Shown here: in pieces, positions 12,052-24,909 of the stretch
Layout of the letters: the number at the start of each line of letters is the position of its first letter
How positions within the stretch are numbered: position 1 is the first letter of the stretch
NCBI GenBank assembly: GCA_025201705.1
Contig: MU616900.1
Coordinates: forward strand, 1-24,909
Direction of reading: 5' to 3'
Origin: Dissophora ornata
Lineage: Eukaryota; Mortierellomycota; Mortierellomycetes; Mortierellales; Mortierellaceae
DNA length: 24,909 nucleotides
Notes under the pieces: model-generated
The model's database searches: none
Told to the model about the DNA's origin: nothing
What the model saw: the letters and a program-made list of their open reading frames with translations, nothing else
Translations under genes and position numbers: made by a program

Positions 12052-12324
12052 AACTGAATGAACAAAGCTACGACTATCAACAGCAACGACACCACAATTT
12101 TTTTTTCCCTGTACAAACATCCATCCACCGTCCTAAAAGTAAAAACCCCAGGCACTCTCTCTACTCTTTTTTTGTACCATATATTCTTTCTTCTGTCACC
12201 ATATTACTACCTCCAACAAAATAAATACTCCATCATTTTGTACAAGAACCCCAATGCTTGGGTCGCTTTAATAGTGTATGCAAGTGTATTCCTCGTCGAC
12301 TGAAGGCCCCTGCCATTTCTTGGC
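12052..12324. other. short convergent 3' region
   Basis: The TBC gene and the damaged kinase converge here. Just past the kinase stop, on the minus strand, about 45 bases still resemble the paralogue at 18.7 kb, showing that the present stop is not the ancestral one. Confidence 0.55.
12220..12225 (+). terminator. candidate polyadenylation signal of the TBC gene
   Basis: The only canonical AATAAA noted after the TBC stop codon, 169 bases downstream of it and in AT-rich sequence. Fungal poly-A signals are loose, so this is tentative. Confidence 0.4.
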
Positions 12325-13064
12325 CTAGCTACCCTCAATATCCATGTCGTGGGCCAGATGGACAATTTTTTCTACAGTTGGTCTCCTTTCGGGATCTTCG
12401 TTAAGACATCTATTCATGATCGCTATGTAACCCGGCGGTGTCTCGTCCCCATGTACCAATTCCCGCATTACGACACCGAGTGCATAGACATCGGACATGA
12501 AAGAGTATGAGGGGCTGGCTCTCATCGATTCTAGCGCCATGAATCTCAGAGTTCCTACTCGCACGGAAGAAGAGGTACAGGTGGCTGAGGCCAAGAACAT
12601 GGCACTCCCAAAGCCGCACAGCTTGACTTCATCGTGTCCCGTTAGTAGGATGTTGGCTGTCTTGATATCTCCGTGGACGATTTCTTGGCTATGCAAGTAG
12701 TCTAAGCCGAGTGCTACCTCCACAATGATTCTCTTCTTGTCCTCCCAATCTAATCTTGAGATGGCATCCTTGAGATTGCCGCCCTCAGCGTAGTCTGTGA
12801 CGATAAACACGGTATTGGCCGTGGTGACAACGCCGTAGCATTGGATGATGTGCTTGTACGCAAGTCGGGAGACAATATTCACTTCTTGAATAACGTCTTC
12901 GGTATACCTGTCTGTGACACAGATATCTGGATACCATCCTTGTCCCAACGATATACTTTGCTAAACCCTCCTCTTCCAATCCACGTCTTTTCGGTAGGAA
13001 GCGGGATGTCGCCCAGTCTCCCCCCCCATAAATCGGGGAAACTGTCGGTTAGAGAATCGAACAT
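12325..13064 (-). pseudogene. damaged and truncated TKL-type kinase, paralogue of the 18.1-19.5 kb pseudogene
   Basis: Starting at the ATG at 13064, the frame reads LWGGRLGDIPLPTEK and a glycine loop (IGRGGFSKVY), then shifts after DKDGIQ. Compared with the paralogue near 19.36 kb, 13 bases are missing there. They include the codon of the ATP-binding lysine of strand beta3, and the frame changes. The rest continues open to 12325 and covers the kinase body: YAEGGNLKDAISRLDW, HGDIKTANILL (HGD for HRD), CGFG (GFG for DFG) and MSDVYALGVVMREL. No intron of normal size fixes the shift. The stop TAG sits where the paralogue has CAG, and beyond it QGPSVDEEY continues toward a Sel1-type entry, so Sel1 repeats were lost. 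Catalysis would be impossible even without the shift. A downstream-initiated fragment could still be made. Confidence 0.75.
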
Positions 13065-13495: not shown

Positions 13496-14776
13496 TTATG
13501 GACGGGCGTACCCAAACCGAGTCTCAATCGAAAACAACTCCTCTGCGACCTTGTCTATTGTAGGTCTAGCATTGTTATGTCGCTGGAGGCATTTCTTCAT
13601 CAGGGCGTTGTATTCCTCACAGATCCTGCTTCTTTCAATCTTTACAAGATCCACCCCTTCCTCGGGTTCTTGGCTGGTTGAGATCTCGTACATGAGGATG
13701 CCAAACGAGTACACTTCTGATTCTGGAGAGGTTCCAAAGCCGCCCCCCGTCTCAGGGGCCCGCCATCTTTTAAGACCTTCTTCCTGAGAGTGATGGTATT
13801 GGGTGATCTCTCTATCTCCTTTACACACCTCGAACCCGGTAAGTATAGGCGTCAGCTTGTCGGTCAGCAAGACGTTGGCGGCTCGAATATCCCTGTGGAT
13901 GATGCGTTTATCCCCAGCCTTGATGTCGTACACGAAGAGTAGCGCATCGGCAACCTGGCGAGCAATGATAACCTTTTGAATAGAGCTCAATTTCCCCGTA
14001 TACTCGTTCAAGGGACCATTGGCGGGCATGTCTGTCACAATCATCCGAGCGCCGCAAAAGCCATAAATCCGCACAATATTGTCGCAGTCCGACAAGCACT
14101 GCGCCATCTGGATACTCTTCTTGATGTTTTCAACGGCCTCATCCACAAGATCGCTGGCCAGTTCTCGAATGTAGACGGGCTTCCCGTTGTAAGTGCCTTG
14201 GTAGATGGTACCAAATGGGAATATGCCGACTTGCGTCTTCTCTTCGCCGAGATAGTCACGGTTCACGATCGCCCGGTCCACAACTCGAGCAGGTGTCGGT
14301 TTGGAAAGGAAAACATTCGCCGCGTCCTCTTGGTTGCGGGATACCAAGAAATCGTGTCTCATGGCATCGTCTTGATCAAGCTCATCCTCCTCGTCCTCAG
14401 CAGACAAGGTCTCGGCCTGACTTGCCACGGCATTCAATCTTGGATCCAAAGCTCTAGTCACCCAGTCATCCAGCTCAGTCATGTGCATATCACAGATCTC
14501 GGGAATCCCGCCGCTCCTGATTCTACGCATGAGGAACCCGGTGCCTGCAAACTTCTTCAGGTCCTCGTCGCATCTGCAAAGGAGTTCTTGGAGTGCCTTC
14601 AAAGCAGGACCTGAGATTGGGCCCAGGTTGCCACTATCTATGAGGTCCTTTAACCATTGACATTTCCTCGCAAGACGCTCGCAAATGCGGTTGTTGAACT
14701 TGACGCGACCGGCACTGGCGATGATGCTGGTCACCAAGGCGGTGATGATGGATGCTATGGCTTCAATTTCGGCCAT
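13496..14776 (-). CDS. MLKL-like protein: N-terminal helical bundle plus pseudokinase
   Basis: A single uninterrupted frame of 426 residues. Residues 1 to about 115 look like the MLKL_NTD/HeLo-like four-helix bundle. A hydrophobic first helix (IASIITALVTSIIASAG) is followed by a basic helix (RICERLARKCQWLKDL), then a helix ending CRCDEDLKKFAGTGFLMRRI, close in pattern to the MLKL helix around EIEKFSNRSN. An acidic linker (128-138) precedes a kinase-like domain from about 180 to 425. Its loop is degenerate (GIFPFGTIY). The beta3 lysine is replaced by Arg (VYIRE, R204). HRD is kept (HRDIRAAN, 294-301). DFG is replaced by GFE (TGFEVCK, 314-316), the same substitution as in human MLKL. RWRAPE and VYSFGILMYEIS follow. 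In animals and plants such proteins oligomerise and permeabilise membranes during regulated cell death. That role here is inference from architecture. Confidence 0.8.
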   Translation of the reverse strand: MAEIEAIASIITALVTSIIASAGRVKFNNRICERLARKCQWLKDLIDSGNLGPISGPALKALQELLCRCDEDLKKFAGTGFLMRRIRSGGIPEICDMHMTELDDWVTRALDPRLNAVASQAETLSAEDEEDELDQDDAMRHDFLVSRNQEDAANVFLSKPTPARVVDRAIVNRDYLGEEKTQVGIFPFGTIYQGTYNGKPVYIRELASDLVDEAVENIKKSIQMAQCLSDCDNIVRIYGFCGARMIVTDMPANGPLNEYTGKLSSIQKVIIARQVADALLFVYDIKAGDKRIIHRDIRAANVLLTDKLTPILTGFEVCKGDREITQYHHSQEEGLKRWRAPETGGGFGTSPESEVYSFGILMYEISTSQEPEEGVDLVKIERSRICEEYNALMKKCLQRHNNARPTIDKVAEELFSIETRFGYARP

Positions 14777-15945: not shown

Positions 15946-17535
15946 CTACGCTACTTTGGCGGCTTTACTGGCCCACTTTTCTGCTTCGTGATCGTCCTTG
16001 GGGACAGCAACTCCCTCCGAATACGCGTCTGATAGCAGACGGAACGCTGGGGCAACCTCTTTCTCAGCAGCACGAAGATACCATTTGACAGCTTCCGATG
16101 GGTCTTTGGCCACACCCCAACCTTCGTTGAACATACGACCGATCTCAAGATCAGCCTCTGCTATTCCTGAGTTGCTTGCCTTGACATACCACTCCATGGC
16201 CTTGGCGTAGTTCTGTTCAACACCCTGGCCATCACGGTACATCTCACCGATATTGAACTTGGCGGTAGAACTTCCTGCATCGCTTGCCTTGAGATTCCAC
16301 TCCATCGCCTTGATGTAATCCTGTTCAGTTCCATAACCATTACGGTATAACTCACCGATATTGACCTTGGCACCCGAATGTCCAGCGTCGCTTGCCTCGA
16401 GATACCACTCCATCGCCTTGGTATAGTCTTGAACAACCCCACTACCACTGAGATACATCCCACCGATATTGAACTTGGCCGTTGAGTGTCCTGTATCGCT
16501 AGCCTTGAGATACCACTCCATCGCCTTAGTGTAGTCCCGTTCAACGCCGAGTCCCATGTGGTACATCTCACCGATATTGGACGTGGCAGCTGATTCTCCA
16601 GCATCGTGTGCTTTGAGGAAGTACTTCATAGCCTTAGTATAGTTCTTTCTCACTCCAGCGCCATAGTAGTACAAGTCTCCGGTGCCTCTGTACAATTTTG
16701 CCTCATTTTTCTTGGCGTCCATTGAAGGGAACTGTGGCTTCTCATCCATCTTCTCTTCTTGCTCCTGTACATTGCCGATATCTCGGAACATTTCCGTCGT
16801 GGCAGGTCTTTCTTCAGGATTTCTATGCCAGCACGCCCGAATGTAGGCTGCATAGGCCTCGGGCGTCTTGCTTGGGATATCCTCCGTGACGCCGTTCTTA
16901 ATGGATTGAATCATGCTTTCCTGCGAATGTCCTTGGTATGGCTGAATGCACCCGGATGCCATCTCCCACATAACCATCCCGAGCGCATATACATCGGACT
17001 TGCACGAGTATTGTGGCGGTTCCAAGAACAACTCGGGCGCCATCCATGGAGACCTGCCATCTCCGCCACTCTGCCCAACCATGCGCGCTCGCCCAAAGTC
17101 ACATATCTTGGCATCCATATGTTTGGTAAGAAGAATATTGGCACTCTTGATGTCGCAGTGAAGGATGTTCTGGCTATGAAGATATGTCAGTCCCAACGAG
17201 ACTTGCTTCGCGATCCGTGTCTTGACCTCCCAGTCTTCGATGGATCCCCTCAATATAGCGTCTGACAGGCTTCCACTCTCTAAGTACTCCATCACAAGAA
17301 TGTCCTGTCCTACATGGTAGAACTGAACAATGTGCTTGTTGCGTACCTGCCTGGCGAGCTCCAGCTCTCGTCTCCAGTCCTCGTGGTCCGATGTGAGAGA
17401 CATTTTGACCACTATATCATCGAGCTTGTACTTGGCCTTGAAGACTTCTGCTTGACCACCATTCCCTATTTTTTCACCCATTGTGATATCCTCCATCGAG
17501 CGAATACTGTTTGGGTGAAAGGGCAAAGCTGACAT
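15946..17535 (-). CDS. TKL-type protein kinase fused to seven Sel1 repeats
   Basis: An intact 529-residue frame without introns. The kinase domain spans about residues 17-255: glycine loop IGNGGQAEVF (23-32), ATP lysine K44 (VVKM), HCDIKSANILL (126-136, Cys replacing the Arg of HRD), DFG (146-148) and WMAPE (164-168). All catalytic residues (K44, D128, N133, D146) are present, so activity is expected, and the missing HRD arginine makes it a non-RD kinase. Residues 279-529 form seven Sel1-type helical repeats of 36 residues, each around the consensus IGEMYxxGxGVxxDYTKAME; repeats 2-5 are nearly the same. Sel1 arrays bind partner proteins. The fusion type is abundant in Mortierellomycota and Glomeromycota, where the substrates are unknown. 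Its neighbours are kinase relics in the same orientation, so the locus is a tandem family. Confidence 0.92.
   Translation of the reverse strand: MSALPFHPNSIRSMEDITMGEKIGNGGQAEVFKAKYKLDDIVVKMSLTSDHEDWRRELELARQVRNKHIVQFYHVGQDILVMEYLESGSLSDAILRGSIEDWEVKTRIAKQVSLGLTYLHSQNILHCDIKSANILLTKHMDAKICDFGRARMVGQSGGDGRSPWMAPELFLEPPQYSCKSDVYALGMVMWEMASGCIQPYQGHSQESMIQSIKNGVTEDIPSKTPEAYAAYIRACWHRNPEERPATTEMFRDIGNVQEQEEKMDEKPQFPSMDAKKNEAKLYRGTGDLYYYGAGVRKNYTKAMKYFLKAHDAGESAATSNIGEMYHMGLGVERDYTKAMEWYLKASDTGHSTAKFNIGGMYLSGSGVVQDYTKAMEWYLEASDAGHSGAKVNIGELYRNGYGTEQDYIKAMEWNLKASDAGSSTAKFNIGEMYRDGQGVEQNYAKAMEWYVKASNSGIAEADLEIGRMFNEGWGVAKDPSEAVKWYLRAAEKEVAPAFRLLSDAYSEGVAVPKDDHEAEKWASKAAKVA
15949..16701 (-). repeat. 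108-bp tandem repeats encoding Sel1 units
   Basis: Seven head-to-tail units of 36 codons form the 3' half of the kinase-Sel1 gene. The central units share long identical DNA stretches, such as the TCCATCGCCTT segments seen on the plus strand, so unequal crossing-over or conversion between units is likely. Confidence 0.85.
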
Positions 17536-18137: not shown

Positions 18138-19499
18138 TTACGGCCTCGGGATATTTTGTGGAACACCGCGGCCTAACTTGTACATTTCACCTAGATAGAC
18201 GTATGCACTCGGGCCATTAACATTAACTTCTTGGATTCCACATAACCCTGTTCCATGTCCCTGCCTTATACATTGTCCCAATGTAGGTTTACGCCACTCC
18301 GCATCCTCTTTTAGCAGCATCACGAAACCATTGCATGGCCTCTTTGTTGTTTTCTGTAACGCCGACTCCATTTAAGTACGCACACCCCAATATGGTGGAC
18401 GCCTCAACACATCCTTGGTTTGCTGCTGCTTGAAGTTGATCCAAAGCTTTGCCGAAATCTTGCGGTACTCCCATTCCGCCATATAGATATAATTTACCAA
18501 GCTCGATCTACGCAGGTGTAAAGCCTTTGTGAGCGACTATCTGGAGCCATTTCACAGACTTGGTGTAATCGCAAAGGACACCAGCTCCAAGTCGGTGGGC
18601 TTTCGTGTATCCCTTGCTAGTGGATCTCCAAACTCTCTTTATGCCCTCAGCGCGATTGGTATCAACTCCATCTCCCGACCCGAAGTAGAGCCCGGGTCCC
18701 AGTTTGTACTCCTCGTCGGCTGAAGGCCCTGCTCTGCCTTGACCTGGCTGCCCTCAATATCCATGTCGTGGACCAGATGGAAACCATGGAAGGCACTCAC
18801 AATCTCTTCTACAGTTGGCTTCCTTTCGGGATTCTCGTTGAAACATCTTTTCATGAATACCATGTAACCCGGCGGTGTCACGTTCCCATGTGCCAATTCA
18901 TGCATTACGACACCGAGTGCATAGACATCGGACATGGTAGAGTATATGGGTTTGGCTCTCATCGACTGGCGCTATGAACCCCGCAGTCCCTTTTCGGACG
19001 GAAGAAGAGACACAGTTAGCCGTCGTCATGACCTTGGCAACCCGAAGTCCACAACTTGGTCTCGCCATTCTTATTCAACAAGATATTGCCTCTCTTGATG
19101 TCTCTGTGGATAAAGCCTTGACTATGCAGGTATACTGATCCGAGAGCTACCTCTGTCACGATTCTCTCCTTGTCCTCCCAATCTAATCTTGAGATGGCAT
19201 TCTCGAGATTGCCGCCCTCAGAGTAGTCCGTGATGATACACACGGTATTTGGCTGTGATGGCAACGCCGTAGCATTGGATGATGTGCTTGTGTGCAAGCT
19301 GGGAGACAATATTCACTTCTCGAGTGATGTCGGCGGTATACATGTTGGGGACGCGGATCCCCTTTACGGCCATCTGGATACCATCCTTGTTCCAATGATA
19401 CACTTCTCCAACCCCTCCTCTTCCAATCCGCGTCTTTTCGGTAGGAAGCGGGATGTCGCCCAGTCCTCCCCATAAATTGTCGGTTGGAATATCGGACAT
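18138..19499 (-). pseudogene. decayed kinase-Sel1 gene, several frameshifts and stops
   Basis: From the ATG at 19499 the sequence encodes LWGGLGDIPLPTEK, loop IGRGGVGEVY, the ATP lysine (MAVKGIR), HRDIKRGNILL and, across shifted frames, DFG, an activation segment (NCVSSSVRKGTAGFIAP) and MSDVYALGVVMHEL. Sel1 units follow (GDGVDTNRAEG, YGGMGVPQDFGKALDQLQ, LGEMYKLGRGVPQ). Against the paralogue at 12.3-13.1 kb I place a 1-base insertion at 19248-19250, 1-base losses at about 19050 and 19040, a 2-base loss near 18966 and a 1-base loss near 18728. A further shift lies near 18270. Within the Sel1 part there are stops at 18508-18510 (TAG) and 18289-18291 (TAA). The active-site motifs are canonical, so the ancestor was probably an active kinase-Sel1 protein. 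Now it cannot make the full product. Confidence 0.85.
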
Positions 19500-24175: not shown

Positions 24176-24909
24176 TTACCTATTTACACAACTAAGTCCT
24201 CGCACGTCCTGAATAGACGTTTCCTCCAAAGAATGCTTATATATTGGAGATCGCCAATGTAAGAACAAGTGACACTCATTCCCTTCTCCTCTGATCTCCA
24301 ACAAGATAATTGTCCCATCAACACAACCAACTACCAAACCATTGATGCCGGAGGTTACTCTCCAGGCGATACTGCCAACACCAGCGTGATTTCGGGTCAC
24401 AGTCATACATTGACCCGACACAATGTCCCACAGCCGCACTGTCTTGTCAAGACTGCCGGAGGCAATCTGATCACCGCTTGGGGAATAGACGACACTTGTA
24501 ACCCAGTGCCTATGGCCCCTCAAGGTGTGGCGGCAATCTCCAGTTTCAACATCCCACAGCCGCACTGTACCGTCATAACTTCCAGAGGCAATCTGACCTC
24601 CGCTTGGTGAATACACGACACTTGTAACCCAGTGGCCATGCCCGCCCAAGGTGTGGCGGCAATCTCCGGTTTCAACATCCCACAGCCGCACTGTCTTGTC
24701 CTCGCTGCCAGAGGCAATCTGTTCACCGCTTGGCGAATACGCGACACTCGCAACCCGGTCACTGTGGCCAGTCGATGTGTGACGGCAATCACCAGTTTCA
24801 ACGCCCCACAGCCGCACTGTCTTGTCATGACTACCTGAGGCTATCTGATCACCGCTTGGCGAATATACGACACTCGTAACCCAGCCACTATGGCCGCTCA
24901 AGGTGTGGC
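24176..24909 (-). CDS. C-terminal part of a WD40-repeat (NWD-type) protein, cut by the window edge
   Basis: The frame is open through the right edge, so the N terminus lies outside. It holds four 42-residue WD40 repeats built on SPSGDQIASGSxDKTVRLWDVETGDCRHT, very alike in DNA. A degenerate blade (VGSIAWRVTSGINGLVVGCVDGT) and a tail with LHWRSPIYKHSLEETSIQDVRGLSCVNR follow. Beta-propellers with such uniform repeats are typical of fungal NWD proteins (NACHT or NB-ARC plus WD40, such as HET-E of Podospora), which sense non-self. The tail with SIQDVRGL matches, from memory, fungal members of this kind, so an NWD receptor is likely but the nucleotide-binding domain is not in view. Directly beyond the TAA, the same frame reads LLKQRG, as family tails do, so the stop may be a late nonsense mutation. 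Confidence 0.75.
   Translation of the reverse strand, partial: HTLSGHSGWVTSVVYSPSGDQIASGSHDKTVRLWGVETGDCRHTSTGHSDRVASVAYSPSGEQIASGSEDKTVRLWDVETGDCRHTLGGHGHWVTSVVYSPSGGQIASGSYDGTVRLWDVETGDCRHTLRGHRHWVTSVVYSPSGDQIASGSLDKTVRLWDIVSGQCMTVTRNHAGVGSIAWRVTSGINGLVVGCVDGTIILLEIRGEGNECHLFLHWRSPIYKHSLEETSIQDVRGLSCVNR
24405..24909 (-). repeat. 126-bp tandem repeats encoding WD40 blades
   Basis: Four units of 42 codons with long identical DNA stretches; the TGGGATGT-type and CCGCTTGG-type blocks recur on the plus strand every 126 bases. Amino-acid differences fall mostly at a few positions (1, 4, 5, 6, 17, 24 and 26 of each unit counted from the residue before GH). The array continues beyond the window. 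Confidence 0.85.

Follow-up and report, generated by a model that had tools for sequence, protein, structure and literature searches.

The locus

The window, as we call the whole stretch of DNA which was analyzed, has a length of 24,909 nt and comes from Dissophora ornata. It contains a gene which we call MLKL-like. MLKL is an animal protein which bursts cells in necroptosis. The MLKL-like gene codes for 426 amino acids, as a sequence-only reading of the window had already stated. Its open frame is on the minus strand, and the plus-strand frame of the same interval is interrupted by stops. Kinase genes or their remains are found on both sides of it. The features are listed in Table 1.

Table 1. 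MLKL-like gene, parts of its protein, and kinase sequences in the window.
Feature	Positions	Strand	Description
MLKL-like gene	13496..14776	-	426 aa, one open frame from ATG to stop; taken as a single exon
N-terminal MLKL_N/4HB-like helical domain	14441..14776	-	residues 1-112
Acidic linker	14282..14440	-	residues 113-165; helix-prone at about 133-155, the position of the MLKL brace; putative brace
Pseudokinase domain	13499..14281	-	residues 166-426; Arg204 in place of the beta3 Lys, HRDIRAAN loop, GFE
GFE replacing DFG	13829..13837	-	residues 314-316
Thr325, activation loop	13802..13804	-	candidate phosphorylation site
Kinase B	15946..17535	-	intact; carries six Sel1 repeats; reads HCD (non-RD) and DFG; candidate for the activating kinase
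Kinase A-like copy	12295..13049	-	split over two frames; reads HGD and GFG; Sel1 part not found; either degraded or spliced
Kinase A-like stretch	18726..19499	-	interrupted by five stops and split over two frames; probable relic

Relatives and conservation

A search with the 426 amino acid protein finds 53 relatives at E ≤ 0.001. The largest part, 35 proteins (P0002-P0036, about ten of them partial), comes from Mortierellaceae, with E values from 8.3e-232 to 2.6e-65. They belong to the genera Mortierella, Dissophora, Gamsiella, Entomortierella, Linnemannia, Podila, and Haplosporangium. The remaining 18, kinases from plant, bacterial, and metagenomic sources, have E values from 7.7e-9 to 8.7e-4. 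No relative was found in the viral contigs searched. When residues 1-120 of P0019 are used as a query, the only matches are P0019 itself and one Mortierella protein, so the N-terminal part does not gather distant fungal relatives. The N-terminal profile, compared with the protein collection under a length filter, finds one protein of 154 amino acids, identical to the N-terminus of the window protein. Residue counts given below refer to alignment A1, which has 34 members: the window protein (P0001) and 33 relatives, with the fragments P0020 and P0022 excluded.

Four intact copies of the MLKL-like gene were found in the D. ornata genome: that of the window (contig C339), two in C28 (C28a and C28b), and one in C675. 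The ratio dN/dS in the two domains is about 0.33 and 0.32 for the pair C28a-C28b, and about 0.21 and 0.22 for the pair formed by the window gene and C28a, where dS is above 1. These values indicate purifying selection among the paralogs in both domains. Because of the 35 Mortierellaceae relatives, the three intact paralogs in the same genome, and this selection, the frame at 13496-14776 is not a chance open reading frame.

Among the D. ornata proteins, the partial sequence P0003 comes closest to the window gene. Its N-terminal domain is 84% identical, and the 192 residues of the pseudokinase which it holds are 97% identical; P0003 could represent either an allele or a further paralog of the window gene. 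One paralog of the genome is identical to the D. ornata protein P0024, and another contains P0012 without a mismatch. The C28 paralog and its D. ornata record are thus the same in sequence, whereas P0003 differs by 16% in the N-terminal domain and by 3% in the pseudokinase. Possible sources of this difference are allelic diversity in the putative effector half or a separate paralog.

The pseudokinase domain

The kinase fold with GFE which the sequence-only reading had described is clearly present. The window protein matches PK_Tyr_Ser-Thr with an E value of 7.5e-28 at residues 182-414, and its GFE, at residues 314-316, is shared by 33 of the 34 members; the other one has GLE. The DFG Asp is thus lost in all of them. 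Both the beta3 Lys and the catalytic-loop Lys are replaced by Arg in 34/34 members. The HRD Asp is retained in all 34 and the HRD His in 29, and no alphaC Glu is conserved across members. Among the three residues which mark an active kinase (beta3 Lys, catalytic Asp, DFG Asp), the Lys and the DFG Asp are gone in every member: Judged by its residues, the domain is invariantly a catalytically dead kinase. Both halves of the protein are under purifying selection, so the dead kinase is being kept and does not decay. Thr325 comes nine residues past GFE. Of the 33 members which have a residue at this position, 32 conserve the Thr.

A kinase-domain profile built from the four copies of the genome has EGFR, SYK, LCK, and B-RAF as its nearest PDB chains, and MLKL is absent from the best 60 of 571 chains. 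By this profile the kinase domain is not closest to MLKL, though GFE-x-x-K is common to both, and orthology of the pseudokinase half with MLKL is thus no more than a possibility.

The N-terminal domain

A hydrophobic first helix and a basic second one had been proposed for the N-terminus. The corresponding stretches are found: the most hydrophobic 19 residues are 4-22, with a Kyte-Doolittle average of 1.93, and residues 25-50 have a net charge of +3. The hydrophobic stretch is retained in the 29 members which were read. Helix propensity, averaged over the family, is found at about residues 1-47, 62-87, and 97-105, and again at the brace-like 133-155. This pattern fits a helical domain, in which no break is visible between helices 1 and 2 and four helices are not resolved.

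The similarity of this domain to MLKL appears at the level of the family. A profile match had been predicted for residues 1 to about 115 of the window protein, and it was not obtained: using Pfam MLKL_N (PF22215) in place of cd21037, the window protein alone gives no match at E ≤ 1, only its relatives do. In Pfam, NCBIfam, and PDB the window protein has kinase matches, neither MLKL_N nor HeLo. Its N-terminus alone gives only chance-level matches in PDB, with MLKL absent from them. In contrast, PF22215 matches 17 of the 34 members at E ≤ 0.1, with a best E value of 4.6e-6. Six of the first eight members scanned have a match, with E values from 4.6e-6 to 0.088. The cut-off curated by Pfam, 27 bits, is not reached: the top score is 26.6 bits among these eight, for a match which also has the best E value among the 34. 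Reversed or shuffled N-termini from five matching members do not match MLKL_N in any of ten cases.

A profile of 22 N-termini has nine PDB matches at E ≤ 1, led by five MLKL chains with E values of 0.17-0.24; because their constructs are almost identical, the five amount to a single observation. The MLKL chain 6lk5 is the last of the nine (E 0.91), and mouse MLKL 4btf is absent at this threshold. When the N-terminal profile is aligned by hhalign with human and mouse MLKL fragments, the score is 23.91 (P 0.0013), with a probability of only 18.8. None of 300 column shuffles reaches this score, the best one having 22.63. In these profile alignments EDLKKFAGTGFLMRRI is paired with GEIEKFSNRSNICRFL of human MLKL and with the corresponding mouse segment, which bears out the match to an MLKL helix that had been noticed from the sequence alone. 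One register, with DLKKFAGTGFLMRRI on human MLKL EIEKFSNRSNICRFL, is common to three alignments: the N-terminal profile against PDB, the full-length profile, and hhalign. We conclude that the N-terminal domain is related to MLKL_N/4HB by profile and at the family level only, a relationship which is weaker than the full-length match to mouse MLKL but specific.

When the full-length profile of the 34 members is used, mouse MLKL 4btf is matched in a single stretch, residues 7-414 on 11-466, with an E value of 2.8e-25. The chain 6lk5 is matched in the same way, 6-408 on 5-468, with an E value of 5.8e-21. The initial interpretation stands in part: profile evidence supports the MLKL-like order of parts and the pseudokinase, a direct MLKL_N match of the window protein is missing, and membrane permeabilization as in necroptosis would be a putative role.

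Neighbouring Sel1-repeat kinases

The MLKL-like gene of the window is 1.2 kb from the intact kinase B and 0.4 kb from the kinase A-like copy at 12295-13049. In C28, the two MLKL-like copies flank an adjacent kinase pair with Sel1 repeats in both members: kinase A has HRD and DFG, kinase B has HCD and DFG. In C675, a divergent Sel1 pair is found at 0.9 kb from the copy; one of its members has HCD and DFG, the other HRK and GFG. Relics of MLKL-like genes in C226 and C12 are 0.4 kb from Sel1 kinase pairs; the relic in C12 is weak (E 2e-4, two stops). A further relic, in C311, has no such pair beside it.

We have counted ten kinase A/B loci in the genome, which with 2 kb on each side make up 0.27% of its length. 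All four intact MLKL-like genes (three loci) and two of the three relics are found within 1.3 kb of Sel1-kinase loci. Counted as loci and assuming independence, five of six MLKL-like loci are inside kinase regions (binomial 9e-13), including the three intact ones (2e-8). A strict count, which excludes both the divergent pair of C675 and the damaged copies of the window, gives four of six (4e-10, again assuming independence). These p-values overstate independence, since the duplication of one block may underlie the linkage. The MLKL-like genes are physically linked to Sel1-kinase genes in the D. ornata genome. The other five A/B loci, where 9-10 kb each were read, have no MLKL-like gene, so the kinases also do without it.

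Kinase B has HCD together with DFG at all ten loci. Tandem Sel1-kinase pairs, one member with HRD and the other with HCD (non-RD), are found at eight loci: C28, C79, C778, C237, C810, C183, C226, and C12. A narrow literature search found no paper on tandem Sel1-repeat kinase pairs of this HRD/HCD type. Non-RD kinases have been tied to innate immunity across kingdoms, in the available part of PMC8463890. The sequence-only reading had spoken of a "kinase-like switch" and had not seen the neighbouring kinase genes, which bear on it.

Other genes related to cell death

A search of the genome for NACHT gives 82 matches, and some of these are fragments of a single gene. None of the 82 is found on C339, C28, C675, C226, C12, or C311. 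An NLR upstream of the MLKL-like protein is possible, none is linked to it. Closely similar WD40 repeats are present in the window at 24176-24907, on the minus strand and about 9.4 kb from the MLKL-like gene, where they are cut by the contig end. Presumably they are of the kind seen on fungal NLRs. We have rejected an NLR partner next door: the window shows only this cut-off WD40 end, and NACHT is not linked.

HeLo PF14479 is absent both from the window protein (E ≤ 1) and from the six-frame genome (E ≤ 0.1), and a HeLo identity of the MLKL-like protein is rejected for this reason. Of the HeLo and HELL-like Pfam families (PF14479, Helo_like_N, SesA, Goodbye), the genome search covered PF14479. 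The genome thus presents many NLR-type sensors and no classical HeLo (PF14479) executioner.

Two other loci exceed the Pfam cut-off for MLKL_N: L013 (C45:82923-83231), with 33.9 bits, and L014 (C28:38617-38952), with 33.7 bits. Apparently both genes have several exons, and a frame rich in Cys and His is found downstream; the frames scanned in these 3-kb loci gave no kinase. The fungus thus appears to have another MLKL_N family, distinct from the MLKL-like one.

Interpretation

The explanation which we prefer, with middling confidence, is a necroptosis-like executioner of the MLKL type, restrained by its dead kinase domain and encoded together with Sel1 kinases which are candidates for its activation; killing, membrane binding, and phosphorylation are what we infer. 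Its starting points are the architecture, the profile relationship with MLKL, the loss of catalytic residues, the conservation in Mortierellaceae, purifying selection, and linkage, all established at the level of sequence. The N-terminal MLKL_N/4HB-like domain would be the effector, held in check by the dead kinase domain. This domain would act as a sensor lock, and the neighbouring kinases would be the likely switch. An active kinase, plausibly one of the adjacent Sel1-repeat kinases, would phosphorylate the pseudokinase, most likely at Thr325. The N-terminal domain would then be released, oligomerize, and breach the fungal plasma membrane, and the cell death which follows may serve in defence or in non-self recognition.

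A somewhat unlikely alternative is a signalling pseudokinase which does not kill. Its helical N-terminus would tether the protein to a membrane or dimerize, while the pseudokinase would be an allosteric partner or scaffold of the Sel1 kinases. The linkage between MLKL-like and kinase genes is in line with such a role, and so is a kinase domain which is not closest to MLKL; pseudokinases commonly regulate active enzyme partners, in the part of PMC7305131 available. The N-terminal domain speaks against it: it specifically resembles MLKL_N, and killing by the N-terminal domain of MLKL is reported for rotifers and for three deuterostome phyla in the portion of PMC11476962 at hand.

It is improbable that the similarity to MLKL_N results from convergence of a helical sequence rich in Cys and Lys, that is, from an unrelated lineage-specific bundle placed on a tyrosine-kinase-like pseudokinase. 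The controls for composition fail to reproduce it (0/10 match MLKL_N, 0/300 reach the hhalign score) and one register recurs in three alignments, even if direct scores are weak and the hhalign probability is 18.8. It is very improbable that the protein acts as a decoy, or inhibits a death pathway driven by kinases in the way in which viral MLKL proteins act on RIPK3: the close linkage to kinases would suit it, but viral MLKL proteins bind RIPK3 constitutively, without its substrate residues (PMC7305131, in part), whereas the MLKL-like family conserves the loop Thr in 32/33 members and retains the hydrophobic N-terminal stretch in the 29 members read.

The MLKL-type executioner may be taken one step further, although only tentatively: Mortierellaceae might have a self-contained necroptosis cassette, with the executioner beside its own activating pair of Sel1 kinases, one of them non-RD. 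If this is true, killing by a kinase-switched 4HB would exist in early-diverging fungi, either as an ancestral opisthokont trait or as a parallel invention. The MLKL layout, the dead kinase, and the adjacent kinases make kinase-switched necroptosis in these fungi directly testable, and the MLKL-like gene and the kinases form a compact set of substrate and kinases for reconstitution in yeast.

Comparison with known systems

Animal MLKL (4btf, and the 4HB structures 6d74 and 2msv) and the fungal family both have MLKL_N-type helices, a linker, and a C-terminal pseudokinase, in the same order and with similar length. The fungal family and mouse MLKL both replace DFG by GFE and have the motif GFE-x-x-K, which is aligned between them. 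On the other hand, the fungal family has lost the beta3 Lys and retains the HRD Asp, whereas mouse MLKL retains the beta3 Lys and has HRN: They have therefore lost different catalytic residues. The fungal family also differs in having no conserved alphaC Glu and a kinase domain which is not closest to that of animal MLKL. Fungal MLKL-like genes adjoin Sel1 kinase genes, while animal MLKL answers to RIPK3.

Fungal MLKL homologs, some of them with kinase or pseudokinase parts, have already been published, as the available parts of PMC12881547 and PMC11476962 indicate, which makes the idea less new than it seemed from the initial reading. The second of these, a study from 2024, sets rotifer MLKL beside an MLKL of Basidiobolus, and states that it is not clear how the fungal and plant homologs relate to MLKL of metazoans. 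Judged by its description there, the MLKL-like protein of Basidiobolus, ORX91397.1, is of the same general kind as the Mortierellaceae family. According to the portion of PMC8778642 available, which surveys early-diverging fungi, homologs of the MLKL family are confined to Glomeromycotina and have Sel1 repeats. Compared by description, this set (TCDB 1.A.105) has Sel1 in its own proteins, while in Mortierellaceae Sel1 is found on the neighbouring kinases. BaMLKL domains are reported on basidiomycete NLRs (PMC9815663, in part).

The fungal HeLo/HELL executioners, HET-S and HELLP, likewise have an N-terminal domain of the 4HB type, evolutionarily linked to MLKL. The characterized killers of this kind are controlled by amyloid motifs and templating, or are built into NLRs. 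Plant MLKLs are called bona fide MLKL homologs and part of the plant immune arsenal (citing Mahdi et al. 2020); their likeness to the Mortierellaceae family is by description only. These three statements follow the available part of PMC12881547.

The open-access literature, covered mainly by titles and beginnings of abstracts, gave no description of the Mortierellaceae MLKL-like family or of its linkage to kinases. In summary, the family appears to be a variant among known fungal MLKL-like proteins. Its new feature would be the linkage of intact copies to genes of Sel1-family kinases.
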